Positions 9,619 to 63,300 of a stretch of DNA of 64,000 nucleotides are shown here, piece after piece. The notes under the pieces were generated by a model. The model was given only the letters and a program-made list of their open reading frames with translations. It was not told where the DNA came from and ran no database searches. The stretch comes from Geodermatophilus obscurus. Its GTDB lineage: Bacteria; Actinomycetota; Actinomycetes; Mycobacteriales; Geodermatophilaceae. A program made the translations under genes and the position numbers. The stretch spans positions 186,001 to 250,000 of the forward strand of contig NZ_FRDM01000005.1 of assembly GCF_900143215.1 (NCBI RefSeq), read 5' to 3'. Within the stretch, counting starts at the first letter, position 1. Every line of letters begins with the position of its first letter.

Positions 9619-9695
9619 GAGCCCTCCTCGCTGGCGCTCGTCGGCGTCGTGACCGGGGGTGCTGTGTCCATGCGTGACCTCGCGAGCTCGGTCAC
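9615..9695 (-). repeat. Family B minicistron repeat (26 codons) before the CruG-like gene
   Basis: The GTG overlaps the TGA of the CruF-like gene, and its TGA overlaps the GTG of the glycosyltransferase. The 26-codon frame starts VTELARSRMD and ends TSASEEGS. The 5' end is an imperfect palindrome around TCGCGAGCTC, and GCGAGGAGG near the 3' end serves as the ribosome-binding site of the next gene. The same unit recurs at 23.1-23.35 kb and, diverged, elsewhere. Whether the peptide is made or only the coupling matters is unknown. Confidence 0.7.
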
Positions 9696-20911: not shown

Positions 20912-22171
20912 ATGACGCTCGGACGAGCACGATCCGTCCCCACGGCCCTCGCGGCGGCGGTCCTGACGACCGTCCTGCTCGCCCCCGGTACCGCAGCAGC
21001 GGCTCCGGCCGCTCCGCCGCTGACCGCACCGGCGGGAGCGGAGATCGGCGCCGATCCGGCCCTGGTGGCGGACCTGCGGGGGGACCTCGAGGAGTACCTC
21101 CGGGCGCGCGGGGAGGCCGAGCACGTCTCGGCCGCCGGTTTGAGCGTCAGCCTCCCGGACCAGCTGGAGACGATCGACGTCAGCGCCGGGACCACCGAGT
21201 TCGGCGGGTCGGTGGCGGTGCAGCCGGACGCCCTCTGGCAGGTCGGCAGCAACACCAAGGCGTTCACCTCGGTGCTCCTGCTGCAGCTGGAGGCGGAGCG
21301 CCGCCTCTCGATCGACGACCCCGTCAGCCGGTGGCTGCCGCAGTACCCGCAGTGGCACGACGTCCCCATCCGGCGGCTGCTGGACATGACCAGCGGCATC
21401 CCCACCTACGACGACCAGCCGGCCTTCCTCACCGACCAGGCCGCCGACCCGCTCCGTGAGTTCACCGCGGAGGAGCTGGTCGACTACGCGGTCGAGGCCC
21501 CGGCCACCTCCGGGTACAGCTACTCGAACACGAACTACGTCCTGGCCGAGATGATCGTCGAGCGGGTGACCGGGACCGGTTACGCCAACCAGCTCTCCGC
21601 CCGGCTCCTCGTACCGCTGGGACTCCGGGACACGTACTACCGCTCGCACCTCTACCCCCCGGGGATCGCCGACCGCATGCCGGCCGGCTACTACACCCGG
21701 ACCGACGAGCCCGAGCTGTCCCCGCTGGAGGGACAGGACGTCAGCCGCACCTCGCTGTCCTGGGCGCGCGGCGCAGGCGCCATCCTGAGCACGACGGCCG
21801 ACCTGACCCGGTGGGAGCGCGCCCTGTACGACGGGTGGCTGCTGCCGCCGCAGCAGCAGGCCGAGCTGCTGAGCCTGGTCTCGACGGCGACGGGGGAGCC
21901 CATCGAGGCGACCGCTCCCGACGACCCCAGGGGCTTCGGCCTGGGGGTCGCCCAGATGACCGACGCCCTGGGCACCTTCTGGTTCTACGAGGGCGAGACC
22001 CTCGGCTTCCGCCTCCTGCACGCGTACTTCCCGGAGTCCGGGCTGATCATCGCCATGGCCCTGAACAGCAGACCCGACGAGGACCAGCTCGGGGCCCTGG
22101 CGACGCGGGTGTACGAGACGCTGGTCGCGCGTGGGGCCCTCGGGCCCGCCCCGGGCGGCGCCGGGGCCTGA
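20912..22171 (+). CDS. Secreted serine hydrolase of the beta-lactamase/DD-peptidase family
   Basis: A 419-residue exported protein with a signal peptide over residues 1-30 (ALAAAVLTTVLLAPGTAAAA). The class C/AmpH motifs are present: SxxK as SNTK in QVGSNTKAFTS, and YxN as YSN in SGYSYSNTNYV. The third motif (usually HxG) is not obvious; EGETLGF occupies its place. It may be a D-Ala-D-Ala peptidase, esterase or beta-lactamase; resistance should not be assumed. The ATG at 20912 is chosen because it gives a clean signal peptide and has GGCGGAG upstream. Confidence 0.82.
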   Translation: MTLGRARSVPTALAAAVLTTVLLAPGTAAAAPAAPPLTAPAGAEIGADPALVADLRGDLEEYLRARGEAEHVSAAGLSVSLPDQLETIDVSAGTTEFGGSVAVQPDALWQVGSNTKAFTSVLLLQLEAERRLSIDDPVSRWLPQYPQWHDVPIRRLLDMTSGIPTYDDQPAFLTDQAADPLREFTAEELVDYAVEAPATSGYSYSNTNYVLAEMIVERVTGTGYANQLSARLLVPLGLRDTYYRSHLYPPGIADRMPAGYYTRTDEPELSPLEGQDVSRTSLSWARGAGAILSTTADLTRWERALYDGWLLPPQQQAELLSLVSTATGEPIEATAPDDPRGFGLGVAQMTDALGTFWFYEGETLGFRLLHAYFPESGLIIAMALNSRPDEDQLGALATRVYETLVARGALGPAPGGAGA

Positions 22172-22180
22172 CTCCCGGGG

Positions 22181-23122
22181 TCAGACGCCGGAGAGCAGCC
22201 GTACGTGCCAGGTGCGGCCGTGCGCGGGGTGCACCGCCCGGCAGGTCAGCGGCGCCGACTCCTGCGACGGGCGGCTCTCGACCTCGGTGACCACGTCACC
22301 GTCCGGCCCGGCCAGGGTGACCACCCACCGCTCGATCTCGGCTCCGGCCGGGGTCAGCCGGCGCACGTCGCGCGGCAGCAGGTCGTCGACACCGAGCAGC
22401 GAGAGCTCCGCGCGGGCGGTGTGCTGGGCCGCCTGCGCCGGCGCGGGCACCCCCGACCGGCCGCGCAGCCAGGGCAGCGCGACCCGGCCGGCGGCGTGCG
22501 CGGCGACCAGTTCGGCGCCGTCGTCGGGCACCTGCCCGTAGTAGAAGCCGTGCGGCAGCACGAGCACGTTGCTGGCGAACCGGCAGCCGCCCAGGTGGCT
22601 GCACTCCCAGGCGTCGTCGGTGGGCATCGTCCGGGCCAGCGGCCGGCCGCGCAGCGCGCAGCACGCGTCGTGCCCGCCGTGCGCGCACACCAGGTAGAGC
22701 GGGTCGTCGGTGCGCGTCCCCACCGACCCGTCCCACGGGACGTCGACCAGTTCGGCGTCGGTGTCGCGCACCGACCACCACACGCCCAGCGCGCCGGGCC
22801 GGCCGTCGACGTAGGCCCAGCGCCGCTGCGAGTCGGCCAGCCGGTCGCCGGGGCGGCGGACCAGCAGCACCCGCACGCCCTCGACCCGTGCCCGGTGGGT
22901 GAGTCGTGGTGCGACGGCCTGGTCGAAGCGGGACTGCGTCAGGGCGTCCTTGCCCCACGGACCGGGCTGCTCCACCAGCAGCCAGCGCTGCGCCGGCGAC
23001 GCGGTGGCCACGCAGGAGTCGCCACGGACCAGCGCCTGCACCGAGCAGCGGTCCGGATCGAGCCGTCCTGCAGGCAGTCCCGGCGCTGCCGCGACCTGGC
23101 AGAAGTCGGCCGGAGCGCTCAC
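22181..23122 (-). CDS. Sucrase/ferredoxin-like (thioredoxin-fold) protein
   Basis: A 313-residue sucrase/ferredoxin-like family protein. Its C-terminal thioredoxin-like ferredoxin part shows CAHGGHDACCALRGRPL and ECSHLGGCRFASNVLVLP, giving the cysteines for a [2Fe-2S] cluster. The biological role is unknown. The GTG start at 23122 overlaps the stop of the last of three tandem family B minicistrons, which also supply the GAGGAGG ribosome-binding site. The next gene upstream on this strand is the JmjC-cupin oxygenase, another iron protein. Confidence 0.78.
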   Translation of the reverse strand: MSAPADFCQVAAAPGLPAGRLDPDRCSVQALVRGDSCVATASPAQRWLLVEQPGPWGKDALTQSRFDQAVAPRLTHRARVEGVRVLLVRRPGDRLADSQRRWAYVDGRPGALGVWWSVRDTDAELVDVPWDGSVGTRTDDPLYLVCAHGGHDACCALRGRPLARTMPTDDAWECSHLGGCRFASNVLVLPHGFYYGQVPDDGAELVAAHAAGRVALPWLRGRSGVPAPAQAAQHTARAELSLLGVDDLLPRDVRRLTPAGAEIERWVVTLAGPDGDVVTEVESRPSQESAPLTCRAVHPAHGRTWHVRLLSGV

Positions 23123-23199
23123 GTCCCCTCCTCGCCGGCGCTCGGACGGCCCGGAACCGGCCGTGCTGTACCCACGGGTGACCTCGCGAGCTCGGTCAC
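23119..23199 (-). repeat. Family B minicistron, tandem copy 3 (nearest the gene)
   Basis: A 26-codon frame, GTG to TGA, starting VTELARSPVG and ending PSAGEEGT. The TGA overlaps the GTG of the sucrase/ferredoxin gene. The tandem period is 77 bp, which is exactly 27 codons minus the 4-nt overlap. Confidence 0.75.
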
Positions 23200-23276
23200 G
23201 TCCCCTCCTCGCCGGCGCTCGGACGGGCCGGAACCGGCCGTGCTGTGCCCATGGAGAACCTCGCGAGCGCGGTCAC
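23196..23276 (-). repeat. Family B minicistron, tandem copy 2
   Basis: A 26-codon frame starting VTALARFSMG and ending PSAGEEGT. It overlaps copies 1 and 3 by GTGA. Its palindromic 5' end has two substitutions relative to the other copies. Confidence 0.75.
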
Positions 23277-23353
23277 GTCCCCTCCTCGCTGGCGCTCGGA
23301 CGGGCCGTGACCGGCGGTGCTGTGCCCATGGGTGACCTCGCGAGCTCGGTCAC
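23273..23353 (-). repeat. Family B minicistron, tandem copy 1
   Basis: A 26-codon frame starting VTELARSPMG and ending PSASEEGT. The GTG lies 19 nt after the oxygenase stop. This copy is the closest of the three to the single unit at 9615-9695. Confidence 0.75.
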
Positions 23354-23372
23354 CTGACGGGGTCCGGCCGGC

Positions 23373-24683
23373 TCACGTTCCGTTCCCGGGCGCGCGCTCA
23401 CGCCCCCCATGGTCCTCCGCGGTCGCACCGGGCACGGTGGCGATCGACTCGGTCACCAGCCGCCGGGCCAGGGTGAGCTGGTCGGGGGCGTCGAGCCCGG
23501 GCAGGTCGGCGACCTTGAGCTCGCCGGCGGCCAGCAACCCGGCCACCGCCGGCCGGGTCTCCGCGGGCAGCTCCAGGGACCGCCGTCCCGCGACCAGGGT
23601 GACCCGCCCGTCGGCGGCCTCGCGCAGCCGGCAGCGCAGCCGGCGGCGCAACCGGAGCACGGTGTCGGGGGAGAGGGCGGCCGCCGCGGTCGCCTGGGCC
23701 AGCGGGGCCACCGGTTCCGGGCGGACCTGCGACCAGGTGCGGGCTCGCAGCCGGTCGGCGACCTCGGCGGGGTCGACGCGGTCCAGCCAGCCCTTGAGCG
23801 CGGTCACGACCGTCGCGACGTCGTCGGCGACCGCGGCCGGGTCGGCGAGGTCGACGCCCAGCGGCAGCGAGCGGCGCAGCTCCGGGTCCTCGGTGGCGAG
23901 CACGCGGACCAGGTCCAGGGCGGACTCCGCGGCCGCCCACCGGGTGACCGGGTGGATGCCGACGGTCAGGTGTGCGCTGATCGCGCCGAGCGCGGTCGCC
24001 GAGTGCAGGTAGCCGCGTGGCAGGTAGAGAGCGTCGCCGGGGCGCAGCACCGCGTCGATCACCGGCTCGCGCTCGGCGGCGGCGGCCACCGCGGCGGCCC
24101 GGTCGTTCCACGGCTGGGTGCGCAGCGGGTCGGTCAGCACCGGCTCGTGGATGCGCCAGTGCTTCTCGCCGGCCACCTGCAGGACGAAGACGTCGTGGAC
24201 GTCGTAGTGCGGGGAGAAGCCGCGCGAGGACGGCGGGGTGATGTAGGCGTTGACCTGCGTCGGGTGGCCGAGGTCGGCGGCCAGCTGGTCGGCGAACTCG
24301 ATCAGCGGCGGCCACAGCCGGTGCAGCCCCTGCAGGACGACGGTGCTGCCGTCGGCGAACAGCCGCAGCACCGCGTCGGAGGAGACCTGGTCGGCGACCT
24401 CCGCGCCGGCGCCGCCGGACGTGGTGAAGCGCTTGGGGTCGACGACCGCGCCGTCCTTGGCGATCCGCAGGAACGGGGTGCGCAGTCCGCGGCGGGACAG
24501 CAGTTCGTCGACCGCGGCGAGGTCGAGCAGGTCGGCGAAGGAGCTGCCCGTCTCCTCGGCGCGCGTCAGCAGCGGCCGGCGGGCCCAGTACTCCTCGGCG
24601 AAGACCCGCGGGTCCAGAGCGGTGCACCGACCCAGGGCCGGCCGGGGATCCGGCCGGCCCTGGGCGGCGTGGTCCTCGGTCAG
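23373..24683 (-). CDS. JmjC-type cupin oxygenase (RoxA/NO66-like, cupin_4)
   Basis: A 436-residue Fe(II)/2-oxoglutarate oxygenase of the cupin_4/JmjC class; relatives hydroxylate ribosomal proteins. With the start used here the iron triad is H159-x-D161 (FSPHYDVHD) and H227 (LPRGYLHSATAL); EEYWARRPLL and VNAYITPPSSRGF are family marks. No ATG or GTG is found near the N-terminus. The frame begins best at CTG 24683, which overlaps the TGA of the (DGGA)n peptide gene in the same xTGA arrangement used across the window. A frameshifted fusion to the peptide is possible but less likely. The neighbouring peptide is a candidate substrate. Confidence 0.78.
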   Translation of the reverse strand: MTEDHAAQGRPDPRPALGRCTALDPRVFAEEYWARRPLLTRAEETGSSFADLLDLAAVDELLSRRGLRTPFLRIAKDGAVVDPKRFTTSGGAGAEVADQVSSDAVLRLFADGSTVVLQGLHRLWPPLIEFADQLAADLGHPTQVNAYITPPSSRGFSPHYDVHDVFVLQVAGEKHWRIHEPVLTDPLRTQPWNDRAAAVAAAAEREPVIDAVLRPGDALYLPRGYLHSATALGAISAHLTVGIHPVTRWAAAESALDLVRVLATEDPELRRSLPLGVDLADPAAVADDVATVVTALKGWLDRVDPAEVADRLRARTWSQVRPEPVAPLAQATAAAALSPDTVLRLRRRLRCRLREAADGRVTLVAGRRSLELPAETRPAVAGLLAAGELKVADLPGLDAPDQLTLARRLVTESIATVPGATAEDHGGRERAPGNGT

Positions 24684-24943
24684 GCGGAACCGTCCGCGCC
24701 ACCGTCGGCACCGCCGTCCGCGCCACCATCGGCACCGCCGTCCGCGCCGCCGTCCGCGCCGCCGTCGGCACCGCCGTCGGCACCGCCGTCCGCGCCGCCG
24801 TCGGCACCACCATCGGCCGAGCCGTGGCCGGCGCCGCTGTCGGCGCCGCCGTCGGCGCCGCCGTCCGAACCGCCGCCCGCCGCGCCGCCGTCGGCCGGGC
24901 CGTGGCCTTCGGTGCTGGTCATGTCGTCGTCGTCGAGAGCCAT
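24680..24943 (-). CDS. Small (DGGA)n tandem-repeat peptide
   Basis: An 87-residue peptide. Residues 1-43 begin MALDDDDMTSTEG and are Gly/Asp/Ala rich. Residues 44-87 are ten DGGA units plus a final DGSA. Codons vary synonymously between units (GAC/GAT, GGC/GGT, GCC/GCG) while the amino acids do not change, so the protein sequence appears selected. The ATG at 24943 has a GGGGAGA upstream. The stop overlaps the oxygenase start. No family is recognised: it could be a modified peptide precursor, a calcium-binding acidic peptide or a structural tail. No signal peptide or cysteine is seen. Confidence 0.68.
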   Translation of the reverse strand: MALDDDDMTSTEGHGPADGGAAGGGSDGGADGGADSGAGHGSADGGADGGADGGADGGADGGADGGADGGADGGADGGADGGADGSA

Positions 24944-25159
24944 GGGGTCTCCCCATCACGTCGGGTCCGGGCCGCCGGCCGGCGGCCCTCCAGGGATGCT
25001 GTACCTCGGCCATCCTGCTCTCACACGCCTGCTCCGACCAGCGGCGACGGCAGCCGGGCAACAGCTCGGTCACGGTGCCGCGTCGAGGTGCCGCGGTGGT
25101 GCGACGGGCGTTAGCGTCCTCCCTCGGGTCGAACACGCGTTCGAGGTCGGGAGGGTCGG
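24944..25159. other. Divergent regulatory region, (DGGA)n peptide and dinB
   Basis: This 216-bp gap serves the peptide-oxygenase unit on the minus strand and dinB on the plus strand. It holds a TANNNT hexamer (TAGCGT, 25112-25117) and a LexA box on the dinB side. Nothing distinctive was found on the peptide side. Confidence 0.5.
25129..25144. promoter_or_regulatory. LexA (SOS) box upstream of dinB
   Basis: TCGAACACGCGTTCGA, a perfect inverted repeat, lies 16 bp before the GTG of dinB and 12 bp after the putative -10 TAGCGT. It is identical to the dnaE2 box. Confidence 0.88.
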
Positions 25160-26368
25160 GTGTCGTCGGGGTCGTCGTCGCGTGCCGCGGGCTGCACCGT
25201 GCTGCACGTCGACATGGACGCGTTCTTCGCCAGCGTCGAGGTGCGCCGCCGGCCGGAGCTGGCCGGGACGCCGGTGATCGTGGGCGGGGCCGGCAACCGC
25301 GGGGTGGTCACCTCGGCCACGTACGAGGCACGCCGCTACGGGGTGCACGCGGCGATGCCCACCTCCCGCGCGCTGCGGTTGTGCCCCACGGCGACGGTGC
25401 TGCCGGGGGACGTGGCGCTCTACGCCGAGGTGTCCCGCTCGGTCATGGCGCTGTTCCGCTCGATCACGCCGCTGGTCGAGCCGCTGAGCCTGGACGAGGC
25501 GTTCCTCGACGTCTCGGGCGCCGGGCGGCGGCTGGGCGACGCGGTCGCGATCGGCGAGTACCTGCGCGCCCGCGTCTTCGACGAGCAGGGCATCACCTGC
25601 TCGGTCGGCGTGGCCGGTACCAAGTTCGTGGCCAAGCTCGCCTCCACCGCCGCCAAGCCCGACGGGCTGCTGGTCGTCCGGCCGGCCGAGGTCATGGGGT
25701 TCCTGCACCCGCTGCCGGTCGGCGCGCTGTGGGGGGTGGGCGCCAGGACCGAGGAGGTGCTGCTGCGGCTGGGGCTGCGCACCGTCGGCGACCTGGCCCA
25801 CGTGCCGGTGCGCACGCTGCAGCGGGCGGTGGGCCCGGCGGCCGGCGCGCACCTGCACGAGCTGTCCTGGGGGCGCGATCCGCGCCGGGTGGTGCCCGAC
25901 GAGCCGGAGCGGTCCACCGGGCACGAGGAGACCTTCGGCACCGACGTCGACGACCCCGCCGTCATCCACCGGGAGCTGCTGCGGCTGGCCGAGCGGACGG
26001 CGGGCCGGCTGCGCTCGGGCGGCTGGCTGGCCCGCACGGTGACGATCAAGGTCCGCTTCGCCGACTTCGCCACGATCACCCGCAGCCGCACCCTCGACGT
26101 CCCGACCGACGTCGGGCAGGAGCTCTACGACACCGCCCGCGTCCTCTTCGACGCCCTCGGCCTGGACCGGGCCCGCATCCGGCTGGTCGGCGTGCGCGCC
26201 GAGCGCCTGGTGCGGGCCGGGTCGACCCCGCGGCAGCTGGAGCTGGGCGCCCGGGAGCACGGCCGCCGGGAGGCCGAGCTGGCCGCCGACCGGGCCGCCC
26301 GCCGGTTCGGCGCCGGTGCGGTCCGCCCGGCGACGCTGCTGCACCGGGACGGGCAGCGCGCCCCCTGA
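25160..26368 (+). CDS. dinB: DNA polymerase IV (Y family)
   Basis: A 402-residue Y-family polymerase for translesion synthesis. The catalytic acids are in LHVDMDAFFASVE (D18, D20) and SLDEAFLDVSG (D112, E113); SVGVAGTKFVAKLAS and LWGVGARTEEVLLRLG follow, then the little-finger domain. A weak clamp-binding motif QLELG lies near the C-terminus. GTG 25160 has GGGAGGG upstream. A LexA box places it in the SOS regulon with dnaE2. The last codons are embedded in a 14-bp tandem repeat that continues past the stop. Confidence 0.9.
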   Translation: MSSGSSSRAAGCTVLHVDMDAFFASVEVRRRPELAGTPVIVGGAGNRGVVTSATYEARRYGVHAAMPTSRALRLCPTATVLPGDVALYAEVSRSVMALFRSITPLVEPLSLDEAFLDVSGAGRRLGDAVAIGEYLRARVFDEQGITCSVGVAGTKFVAKLASTAAKPDGLLVVRPAEVMGFLHPLPVGALWGVGARTEEVLLRLGLRTVGDLAHVPVRTLQRAVGPAAGAHLHELSWGRDPRRVVPDEPERSTGHEETFGTDVDDPAVIHRELLRLAERTAGRLRSGGWLARTVTIKVRFADFATITRSRTLDVPTDVGQELYDTARVLFDALGLDRARIRLVGVRAERLVRAGSTPRQLELGAREHGRREAELAADRAARRFGAGAVRPATLLHRDGQRAP

Positions 26369-26412
26369 CCCGCGCCCCCTGACCCGCGCCCCCTGACCCG
26401 CGGCACCCGACC
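26357..26412. repeat. 14-bp tandem repeat at the dinB 3' end
   Basis: CGCGCCCCCTGACC is repeated three times perfectly (26357-26398), followed by a degenerate fourth copy. The first copy contains the dinB stop codon, so the 3' end was duplicated without altering the protein. Confidence 0.8.
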
Positions 26413-26642
26413 CGCGGCACCGCCGCGACCGGCACCCGACGGGGCGGCCTCCGACCGGGTGGCGGGAACTCCGGCCGCACCCCGTTCGTCTCCCCGCCGA
26501 GGCCGTGGGCCACCCGCCGGGGTGATCACGGCGAGCCCGGCGCGGCTCGCCTTTCGCACCCGTCGGAGGGCTCGTATCCTCGGTGTCACCGACGGCGGGC
26601 ACCGCCGTCGGGTTCTTGGCTTTGGCCCACGTGGAGGTCGAC
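26413..26642. other. 5' region of the DUF3040 gene with hairpin
   Basis: A TATCCT at 26575-26580 is a plausible -10. Just after it, CCGACGGCGG (26589-26598) and CCGCCGTCGG (26602-26611) form a perfect 10-bp stem with a 3-nt loop, which would lie at the very 5' end of the mRNA, about 30 nt before the start codon. It may stabilise the transcript or attenuate it. Confidence 0.4.
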
Positions 26643-32349: not shown

Positions 32350-32449
32350 GCGTCCTCCCTCGCTGTCCCCGCGAGCGGGAGGTGCTCCCCGCCCGTCGGC
32401 CGCCGGTCCGACGGTGCTCTGCCGTGCGTGACCTCGCGAGCTCGGTCAC
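32348..32449 (-). repeat. Decayed family B unit before moxR
   Basis: The frame opens VTELARSRT with the same palindromic 5' end as the intact units, and it ends in a ribosome-binding site-like AGGGAGGAC next to the moxR GTG. Indels have removed the in-frame TGA overlap, so translation from it would run into moxR out of frame. Confidence 0.6.
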
Positions 32450-33242: not shown

Positions 33243-33762
33243 TCCCGACGTCCCGTTCCCCCGACCCCTCCAGGCCCTCCCCGCCGACCGAGCCGACTTC
33301 CCCGCGGCTCGACCGGACCGGACCGAGCCACCTTCCCCGTGGCTCGGTCCCCAGCGGCACCGGAGGAGACGCACCGCCCACCGGGCGCGCCGCCGGCCCC
33401 CACCGGCTGCCGCGCCCGCCCGTCCCCGCGGGGCTCCACCTGACGTACTTCCCCGACGCCAGGCGGGCCCCGCGGGGGGCGGCCGGGCGTCTGTCGTGGG
33501 TCGGGACCCCACCTCGCCCCACGTCCCCCACCCCGCCCCACCCACCCCGTCCCACCGACCACCCCGTCCCACCGACCACCCCGTCCCACCGACCACCCCG
33601 CCACACCCACCCCGTCCCGCCCTCCCACCCCGGGCGCCCCAGCAGCGTCCCCGAGGACCGGCGAAACGCCGCTGCGCTCCGCTCCCCGACCGCCGTCCAG
33701 CCCCACCATGGACGGGCCTCCGCGCCCCGAGGGCGCCCCGACCCGTTCAGGAGCCGCCGACG
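33243..33762. other. Long C-rich spacer between mraZ and rsmH
   Basis: No supported gene is present. At 33507-33554 there are several CCCCA/TCCCA motifs mostly 10 bp apart, which read on the minus strand as TGGGN, like MraZ boxes. At 33549-33599 a 17-bp unit (GTCCCACCGACCACCCC) is repeated three times. A reading frame upstream of rsmH is proline-rich noise. The last 100 bp hold the rsmH start with AGGAG at 33749-33753. Confidence 0.6.
33549..33599. repeat. 17-bp tandem repeat, three copies
   Basis: GTCCCACCGACCACCCC occurs at 33549, 33566 and 33583 without change. It lies in the mraZ-rsmH spacer. Confidence 0.85.
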
Positions 33763-43447: not shown

Positions 43448-44541
43448 GCGTCAGCGTCGTCCTGGCCGGCGGCGGCACCGGCGGCCACATCGAGCCGATG
43501 CTCGCCCTCGCCGACGCCCTGCTGCGCCGCGGCGCGATCGAGGGCGGGTTGCGGATCACCTGCCTGGGCACCGCTCGGGGCATGGAGACCCGGCTGGTCC
43601 CCGCCCGCGGTTACGACCTGCGACTGATCCCGCCCGTGCCGCTGCCGCGCAGGCCCACCCTCGACCTGCTGCGGGTGCCCGGCCAGGTGGTCCGCTCGGT
43701 GTCCGAGACCCGGGTGCTGCTGCGCGAGCTGTCCGCCGGCGTCGTCGTCGGCTTCGGCGGCTACGTGGCGCTGCCGGCCTACCTGGCCGCCCGCCGCGAG
43801 CGGGTGCCGGTCGTCGTGCACGAGCAGAACGCGCTGCCCGGCCTCGCCAACCGCATCGGCGCGCGGGTCGCCGAGCGGGTCGCCGTCACCGTGCCCGGCA
43901 CGCCGCTGCGCGGCGCCGAGCACGTTGGCATGCCGCTGCGGACGGCGATCAGCACGCTGGACCGTCCCGCCCGCCGCGCCGAGGCCCGCGCGACCTTCGG
44001 CCTGGACCCCGGCCGGCCCACGCTGCTGGTCGTCGGCGGGTCGCAGGGCGCGGCCTCGCTCAACCGGGCCGCCGTGGGCGCCGCCGACGCGCTCACCGCC
44101 GCCGGGGTCCAGGTGCTGCACGCCCGCGGGCCCAAGAACACCGACGTGACCGTGTCGCCGCGCGCGCCCGGGCAGGCCCCCTACGTCGTCGTCGACTACC
44201 TCGAGCGCATGGACCTCGCCTACGCCGCGGCCGACCTGGCCCTGTGCCGGGCGGGCGCGGTCACCGTGGCCGAGCTGTCCGCGGTCGGGATGCCGGCGGT
44301 GTTCGTGCCGCTGCCCATCGGCAACGGCGAGCAGCGGCGCAACGCCCGGCCCGTCGTCGACGCCGGGGGAGGACTGCTGGTGGACGACGCGGACCTGTCG
44401 CCGTCCTGGATCGAGGAGCACGTCATCCCGATGGTCACCGACCCGGCCACGCTGGCCCGGTACGCCGAGCACGCCGCGGCCGCCGGCGCCCGGGACGCCG
44501 ACGAGCGCCTGGCCGACATCGTGCTGGAGGTGGCCCGGTGA
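43444..44541 (+). CDS. murG: UDP-GlcNAc:lipid I GlcNAc transferase
   Basis: A 365-residue GT28 glycosyltransferase that makes lipid [55 protein letters not shown] and [23 protein letters not shown] are all present. The start overlaps the ftsW stop. Its stop overlaps the start of a 19-codon minicistron that separates it from murC. Confidence 0.95.
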
Positions 44542-44597
44542 GCGAGCCCGTGCCGGCGCGGACGCGGCCGACGAGCGCCGGCGAGGAGGACGAGTGA
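44538..44597 (+). repeat. Family B-type minicistron between murG and murC (19 codons)
   Basis: GTG overlaps the murG stop; TGA overlaps the murC GTG. The frame starts [10 protein letters not shown] and ends PTSAGEEDE. GGCGAGGAGG gives murC its ribosome-binding site. It is the shortest family member seen. Confidence 0.62.
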
Positions 44598-46863: not shown

Positions 46864-47096
46864 CAGGAGGACCCCGTCCTCTCCACTCCTCGTAGCAGGA
46901 CCCGCCCTCCTCACCGCGAAGGACCCCGCCCTCCCCGCCCTGCGTCGAAGGACCCCGTCCTCCTCACCGCTCGCAGGCTCGCGGCGAGCCCCTGGACGGG
47001 GCCGACCCGGGACGGGGCCGCGGCGAGCCTCTGGACGGGGCCGGCGGACCCGCCGTGGGGGTGGCCGGGCCAGGTCCGGTGGGAGAGGGTGGCCCG
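46864..47096 (+). terminator. Family A element cluster after ftsQ
   Basis: At least three left arms (GGACCCCGTCC or GGACCCCGCCC) and three right arms (GGACGGGGCC) lie in 233 bp. The best stem pairs CCCCGTCC (46953-46960) with GGACGGGG (46994-47001) around the conserved core. This is the densest accumulation in the window and separates ftsQ from the CMD gene. Confidence 0.65.
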
Positions 47097-62339: not shown

Positions 62340-63134
62340 GTGACTCCGGTCGGGCTGCCCGGCTCGCTCGCCGAGTGGGGCCCGGCCGCGCTGTCCGCCG
62401 TCGTCGTCGCCGGCTACCTGGTGGTCGGTGAGCCGTTCGTCGGCCACGTGCTGCACCGCCGCTTCGAGGGCCGGCTGCGCACCGACGACGGCGCGCGGCG
62501 GTCCTTCTACGCCCGGCTGCTGCTGCTGGAGTGGGGCCTGGCGGTGGTCGCCCTGGTGGTCTGGCTGTCGGCACCCGGGGTGGACGCCGGTGCCGTGGGG
62601 CTGCGCTGGCCGCAGTCCTGGCCCGGCCCGCTGGCCGTCGCGGCCACCGTCGCCGTCCTCGGCTTCGTCGTCGTCTCCACGCGGGCGCTGCGTTCGGGCG
62701 CGCTGGCGCAGGCGGGCGCCGAGCTGCGCCGGCCGGGGGAGGGGCGGCACGCCGAGCCGGCCGTGCACGCCACCCTGGCGCTGCTGCCGCGGACGACGGC
62801 GGAGCGGCGGCTGTTCACGCTGGTCGGGATCACCGCCGGCGTCTGCGAGGAGTGGCTCTACCGCGGGTTCTTCCTCGCCGTGGTGGCGGCGGCCGGCGGG
62901 GAGCTGCCGACACCGGTCCTGGTGGCGATCGGCGCGCTGGCGTTCGGGCTGGCGCACGCCTACCAGGGTGTCGCCGGCATCGTGACGACCGGCGTCCTGG
63001 GCGGCGTGATGGCCGTGCTCTACCTGGGCACCGGGTCGCTGCTGCTGCCCGTCGTGCTGCACGCGCTGATCGACCTGCGCTTCCTGCTGGTCCCCGCGTC
63101 CGCGCTGCCCGACGCCGTCCGGAGGCCCACGTGA
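62340..63134 (+). CDS. CPBP-family intramembrane metalloprotease
   Basis: A 264-residue membrane protein with about seven helices and the CPBP (Abi/CAAX) motifs: GVCEEWLYRG (EExxxR), AFGLAHAYQG (FxxxH) and LHALIDLRFL (HxxxD/N). It may process prenylated or other membrane peptides; relatives also act in bacteriocin self-immunity. The start is GTG 62340. Its TGA overlaps the GTG of a diverged family B unit. Confidence 0.85.
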   Translation: MTPVGLPGSLAEWGPAALSAVVVAGYLVVGEPFVGHVLHRRFEGRLRTDDGARRSFYARLLLLEWGLAVVALVVWLSAPGVDAGAVGLRWPQSWPGPLAVAATVAVLGFVVVSTRALRSGALAQAGAELRRPGEGRHAEPAVHATLALLPRTTAERRLFTLVGITAGVCEEWLYRGFFLAVVAAAGGELPTPVLVAIGALAFGLAHAYQGVAGIVTTGVLGGVMAVLYLGTGSLLLPVVLHALIDLRFLLVPASALPDAVRRPT

Positions 63135-63207
63135 GCGAGCGGGCCCACGCATGGACGCAGCAGGGTGGCGCGAACGCGCCGACGAGCGCAGCGAGGAGGT
63201 CGCGTGG
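63131..63207 (+). repeat. Diverged family B unit before dnaE1
   Basis: It begins with GTGA overlapping the CPBP stop, keeps the GCATGGAC, CGACGAGCGCAGCGAGGAGG and ribosome-binding site segments of the canonical unit, but has indels that break its frame. Confidence 0.55.
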
Positions 63208-63300
63208 GTGCCCGGTGCGCCACGGCGGCCCGACCTCGCCGGTGACGGCTACGAGGAGCCCGGCACCGCGCACGTCCCGATGCGCCGTCCGCCCGTGTGA
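63151..63300 (+). CDS. Possible small protein upstream of dnaE1
   Basis: From ATG 63151 a 49-residue frame runs to TGA 63300, starting MDAAGWRERAD. A more likely start is the in-frame GTG at 63208, 8 nt after GAGGAGG, giving 30 residues (VPGAPRRPDLAGDGYEEPG...). Third-position GC is high, but the frame is short and partly overlaps a repeat unit. No family is recognised. Confidence 0.4.
   Translation: MDAAGWRERADERSEEVAWVPGAPRRPDLAGDGYEEPGTAHVPMRRPPV

Follow-up and report, generated by a model that had tools for sequence, protein, structure and literature searches.

Three short reading frames of 26 codons follow one another directly ahead of a Suc_Fer-like gene of Geodermatophilus obscurus, which raises the question of what such a chain is and how it could bear on the gene behind it. 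In the window, i.e. the whole stretch of 64,000 nucleotides that was analysed, a preliminary description had noted three tandem minicistrons joined by GTGA, the last of them overlapping the Suc_Fer start, and this was confirmed with the sequence, the ORF list and TRF. The GTG codons at 23353, 23276, 23199 and 23122 of the minus strand are spaced by exactly 77 bp, and the array of three 77-bp units spans 23353-23123 (Table 1). The TGA of each mini-cistron overlaps the following GTG as GTGA, and the fourth GTG opens the Suc_Fer-like gene. Two mini-cistrons were listed as 26-aa GTG ORFs on the minus strand (23119-23199 and 23196-23276), while the third, with its GTG at 23353, lies in frame within a longer listed ORF (23273-23428). 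TRF gave a period of 77 with 3.1 copies, 90% match and no indels, and its score of 393 was the highest among the tandem repeats of the 64-kb window. Every unit contains a GAGGAGG Shine-Dalgarno-like stretch just ahead of each GTG. Other tandem repeats were observed as well: a 12/36-bp repeat at 24690-24895 near the 5' end of the JmjC-domain ORF, a 14-bp repeat CGCGCCCCCTGACC with 4.3 copies (26357-26416) at the 3' end of a DinB-like polymerase gene (25160-26368), and further GC-rich repeats at 46867-46970 and 33506-33618 (AGGACCCCGCCCTC-type; 17-bp CCACCCCGTCCCACCGA).

Table 1. Features of the array, its neighbouring genes and further copies of the unit in the window.
Feature	Position	Strand	Details	Basis
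Suc_Fer-like gene (PF06999, 1e-14)	22181..23122	-	313 aa; GTG overlaps TGA of mini-cistron 3	
Unit 3 (77 bp)	23123..23199	-	mini-cistron 23199-23119, peptide VTELARSPVGTARPVPGRPSAGEEGT*	sequence, ORF list
Unit 2 (77 bp)	23200..23276	-	mini-cistron 23276-23196, peptide VTALARFSMGTARPVPARPSAGEEGT*	sequence, ORF list
Unit 1 (77 bp)	23277..23353	-	mini-cistron 23353-23273, peptide VTELARSPMGTAPPVTARPSASEEGT*	sequence, ORF list, TRF
Shine-Dalgarno-like GAGGAGGGG of unit 3	23125..23133	-	2 nt before Suc_Fer GTG	conserved alignment columns
GAGGAGGGG-type Shine-Dalgarno in unit 2	23202..23210	-		
GAGGAGGGG-type Shine-Dalgarno in unit 1	23279..23287	-		
Hairpin A of unit 1	23332..23353	-	GTGACC (23353-23348) pairs with GGTCAC (23337-23332); holds mini-cistron start codon	covariation
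Hairpin B of unit 1	23271..23312	-	GGTCACG (23312-23306) pairs with CGTGACC (23277-23271)	covariation, centroid fold
Upstream gene, JmjC_2/cupin domain (PF08007)	23373..25136	-	TGA 23375-23373; 5' start putative	
Single copy	9619..9695	-	ends in xTGA on both sides, overlapping the stop of the preceding gene and the start of the following one	
Short copy, 56 bp	44538..44593	+	21 bp shorter than 77, still in frame; GTGA on either side	
Diverged copy, 100 bp	32350..32449	-	frame lost	
Diverged copy	63131..63209	+	GTGA at 5' end only	

The unit is not confined to this locus. When the array was searched with blast against its own genome (5.24 Mb, 112 contigs), about 40 further places were found, and a covariance model built on one unit (R1) detected about 80 copies at E < 0.001. 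The majority are single units, GTGASCGAGCTCGCGAGSTCAC ... GACGAGCGCCRGCGAGGAGGNNNCGTGASC, and several are tandem; most are 77 bp long with xTGA at both ends. Since the same unit of this length and with these ends stands at about 80 other places, the array is not a product of chance. The proposed geometry of coupled mini-cistrons, a 77-bp period with 4-nt overlaps, is supported. In one other array of this genome, three units have a period of 78, by which the frame chain is broken. A covariance search of 22000-24500 matched no Rfam family up to E = 1.

The element was present in all 25 congeners searched, with 4 to at least 75 copies per genome, in nine of eleven other genera of the family Geodermatophilaceae and in a single genome among 24 searched from the order's other families. 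Diverged copies were found in five further actinomycete families, and tandem arrays of diverged units in other actinomycete families have periods of 68, 77 and 80, all of which are 3n+2. Judged by the Suc_Fer protein, the genome under study is close to G. poikilotrophus.

The gene context was checked on both sides of 76 copies of this genome by reading frames and third-position GC (GC3). In 67/76 copies, the terminal xTG opens, in frame, a downstream gene that is supported by GC3, and in 50/76 the TGA within the initial xTGA closes the coding frame of the upstream gene. Among 30 copies from eight other genera, the corresponding values were 29/30 and 22/30, and the mini-ORF was in frame in 27/30. 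Thus, the element usually lies within the 4-base stop-start overlap of two co-directional genes, where it makes two overlaps. The genes downstream of the copies are mutually unrelated.

Related species showed what the sites look like without the element. At the Suc_Fer locus, no unit is present in G. poikilotrophus, Geodermatophilus sp. DSM 45219, sp. DF01-2, G. ruber and G. sabuli, and one unit is present in G. siccatus, G. africanus and G. chilensis (frameshifted in the latter), compared to three in the window; the flanks align across species up to the GTG. A chain of three units before the gene, on which the earlier interpretation had been built, is therefore not essential. The flanks of twelve other copies were then joined and searched in five low-copy congeners, and an uninterrupted junction was found at eight to nine of the twelve loci, most often as a native GTGA or ATGA overlap. 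The empty site at the start of hisS, for instance, reads GTGAGC in four of the five congeners and GTGACC in the fifth. Between filled and empty sites, the native overlap is identical and the second codon mostly retained; through the element, a site gains a mini-ORF along with a Shine-Dalgarno and one more overlap. These sequence comparisons show a dispersed element that is inserted exactly at starts.

The array is probably a tandem amplification of a MIRU-like mobile element that is dispersed at gene starts and relays ribosomes to the next gene. It would be transposed by some enzyme into an xTGA start or stop-start overlap, leaving xTGA on both sides. The left xTGA would start the short ORF (26 codons here) and usually hold the upstream stop, while the right one would close the mini-ORF and serve as start of the downstream gene, with which the 3' end of the element, carrying GAGGAGG, would form a hairpin. 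Ribosomes arriving from the upstream gene would re-initiate on the mini-ORF, melt this hairpin (B) during translation, terminate at the overlap near GAGGAGG and re-initiate on the downstream gene. Because of such a relay through the mini-ORF, an insertion would do little harm and would keep or even tighten coupling.

Two hairpins were recognised in the unit. In hairpin A, alignment columns 1-6 pair with 17-22 and the start codon of the mini-ORF lies inside; in hairpin B, columns 42-50 pair with 75-83 (76-84 in the 84-column alignment A1), the loop contains the Shine-Dalgarno, and the first two codons of the downstream gene lie in the stem. Both covary in the copies of this genome and in an independent set from other genera, and hairpin B, whose covariation is strong, also covaries across families in a third set; the covariation score was reached in 0/500 shuffles. 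In the cross-family set, the start-codon G/A faces the internal C/U as 15 CG and 8 UA pairs. Pairing between the codon-2 base and its internal counterpart holds in 36/39 and 22/22 copies; in units with two different ends, it follows each hairpin locally. The 5' arm of hairpin B fits its own terminus better than the termini of other copies (0/500 permutations). At orthologous filled sites of two species, nine pairs have changed on both sides and seven of them keep pairing; the two that do not are internal tandem units compared with a single copy. Minimum-free-energy folds of single units were slightly more stable than shuffles with a mean z of -0.5, which taken alone is weak evidence of structure, and the whole array folds with a z of -2.2.

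The hairpins could also serve DNA mobility, the internal arms pairing with the target CGTGASC in a guide-like manner as in single-strand transposition and the mini-ORF being merely tolerated. The pairing between the internal arm and the target's native codon 2, the xTGA at both ends and the existence of empty and filled sites would agree with this. We nevertheless consider it unlikely, as the double changes between orthologous copies keep pairing after insertion and the frame keeping at chained sites described below is not expected from it. In addition, mobilisation by a Y1 (IS200-like) transposase was rejected: 0/26 Geodermatophilus genomes contained one, while five control genomes were positive. 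REP and IS200-IS605-derived palindromic elements are likewise dispersed, form hairpins and lack a transposase of their own; the element differs from them by its sense orientation at starts, its internal in-frame ORF and this absence of Y1 transposase from the genus.

The relay of ribosomes, in turn, makes a prediction on unit length, since selection for translation across the unit would produce a bias towards 3n+2. Length variants (not 77 bp) were collected from three genomes and de-duplicated by downstream gene. Of those chained to the upstream gene, 18/27 kept 3n+2, compared to 3/18 of the unchained ones (Fisher p = 0.001) and to an expectation of 1/3 (binomial p = 0.0004); the 3n+2 lengths among them were 56, 59, 65, 68, 71, 74, 80 and 101. 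In the raw match spans, only about 40% were multiples of three, and the signal appeared once chained sites were separated from the rest. The preliminary description had asked whether length is constrained to 3n+2 in relatives and had regarded lengths that ignore the frame as evidence against coupling. The lengths do differ between families, yet 23/25 diverged copies from the five further families (68, 77 or 80 bp) fit 3n+2 and close their mini-ORF within the terminal xTGA. This check came out in favour of the coupled geometry. On the other side, 9/27 chained length variants are out of frame, from which it follows that the relay is not strictly required.

These out-of-frame variants would also suit a non-coding repeat with ORFs that arose by chance, all the more as stops are rare in GC-rich DNA and a second frame is open in all selected copies too. 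Such a repeat is nonetheless very unlikely, considering the 3n+2 lengths in separate lineages, the contrast between chained and unchained sites and the fixation of the xTGA ends to the neighbouring genes.

The three peptides had been described as closely related, but no conservation was detectable at the peptide level: the codon-position entropy of the mini-ORF was 0.79 bits at third positions, 0.90 at first and 0.79 at second ones, so that variability is not raised at third positions, and of the three frames it was the ORF frame that had the lowest peptide identity. A function of the mini-ORF peptide was rejected, as protein-type conservation was absent. Accordingly, the least probable explanation is an attenuator or regulatory leader whose peptide sequence matters, despite short ORFs with a recurring VTELARS...TSASEEGS directly before genes; the unrelated downstream genes argue against it as well.

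For the relaying mobile element, the window locus is an atypical site, with a loose link to the upstream gene and a copy number of zero, one or three among species. The TGA of the JmjC_2/cupin gene lies 19 nt before unit 1, so that the stop is not overlapped; no clear native Shine-Dalgarno was seen in the window sequence ahead of unit 1, and hairpin B of unit 3, the last one in the window, is weak (GGTTCCG vs CGTGAGC). Due to these three features, Suc_Fer may be affected mainly through the supply of a Shine-Dalgarno, which is absent from the empty sites. The threefold chain itself is one outcome of local amplification.

The MIRUs of mycobacteria, which are widely used in typing tuberculosis isolates, offer the closest comparison. 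Supply et al. reportedly described in 1997 that MIRUs overlap the stop codon of the upstream gene with their 5' end. According to a review, MIRUs are apparently mobile, insert at start codons and have an ORF that is coupled to the gene with a spacing of -4 nt (PMC12548453). Three identical 77-bp MIRUs lie between senX3 and regX3 of H37Rv; according to the authors, only M. leprae and the M. tuberculosis complex have MIRUs at this locus (PMC4213456). The idea that a chain of this kind is not a described element is thus not supported, as MIRUs share its geometry (PMC12548453; PMC4213456). Both are short dispersed or tandem units, many of 77 bp, at starts between co-directional genes; in both, the internal ORF shares 4 nt with the following gene, a Shine-Dalgarno lies near the 3' end and the units appear to be mobile. 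The dispersal of MIRUs at tens of intergenic sites, some in tandem, has its counterpart in the about 80 copies found here. Insertion at start codons with a 4-nt overlap was seen in this genome, in other genera and at empty sites, and the 5' end covers the upstream stop in the 50/76 and 22/30 copies given above, though not at the window locus. Since its architecture matches that of mycobacterial MIRUs, the element belongs to a kind that is already known.

Its sequence could not be linked to theirs. With the MIRU core as query, MIRU loci turned up in a single genus of the order, in 17 of its genomes, and these loci show the same gene placement as the element. Against the mycobacterial MIRU loci, model R1 reached 12.8 bits at best (E 0.43) and model R2 an E of 0.14 at best, neither of which is significant, and local alignments of element and MIRU did not exceed shuffles once the Shine-Dalgarno was masked. 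No R1 match occurred in the sampled genomes of the genus that bears the MIRU core. In this genus, a mycobacterial-type MIRU array with a period of 51 was observed; since 51 does not have the form 3n+2, the frame rule does not extend to all mycobacterial units. The element further differs in its hosts, Geodermatophilaceae and other actinomycete families instead of mycobacteria, and in the covarying start-codon hairpin and the frame bias described here. No earlier report of such a hairpin or bias, and no paper on a MIRU-like element outside mycobacteria, was found in the open-access literature. From sequence and analogy, the element would appear to work like a MIRU, while no significant sequence match ties it to MIRUs; it is a separate family that has apparently been undescribed so far.

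Repeats directly before many start codons are also known from Cluster K mycobacteriophages, namely the SAS/ESAS with their 13-bp GGGATAGGAGCCC. In the available part of that report, about half of the SAS copies have an inverted repeat upstream, which resembles the element, while no mini-cistron chain is described there, which sets them apart (PMC3203893). The 13-bp GGGATAGGAGCCC is absent from the unit consensus of the element.

The family is class-wide across actinomycetes, with its frame rule and its start-codon hairpin. More tentatively, and at odds we would put somewhat below even, the pairing of the hairpin with the first two codons of the landing gene might reflect pairing-guided target choice or later adaptation and impose strict translational coupling downstream, with MIRUs being the mycobacterial branch of a class-wide family or a parallel to it.

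The movement and role of MIRUs are poorly known. The many pairs of empty and filled sites, the length variants and the covarying start-codon hairpin provide useful material, and a related kind of element with about 80 copies per genome in soil actinomycetes that are harmless and safe to work with makes insertion, frame rules and translational coupling testable.
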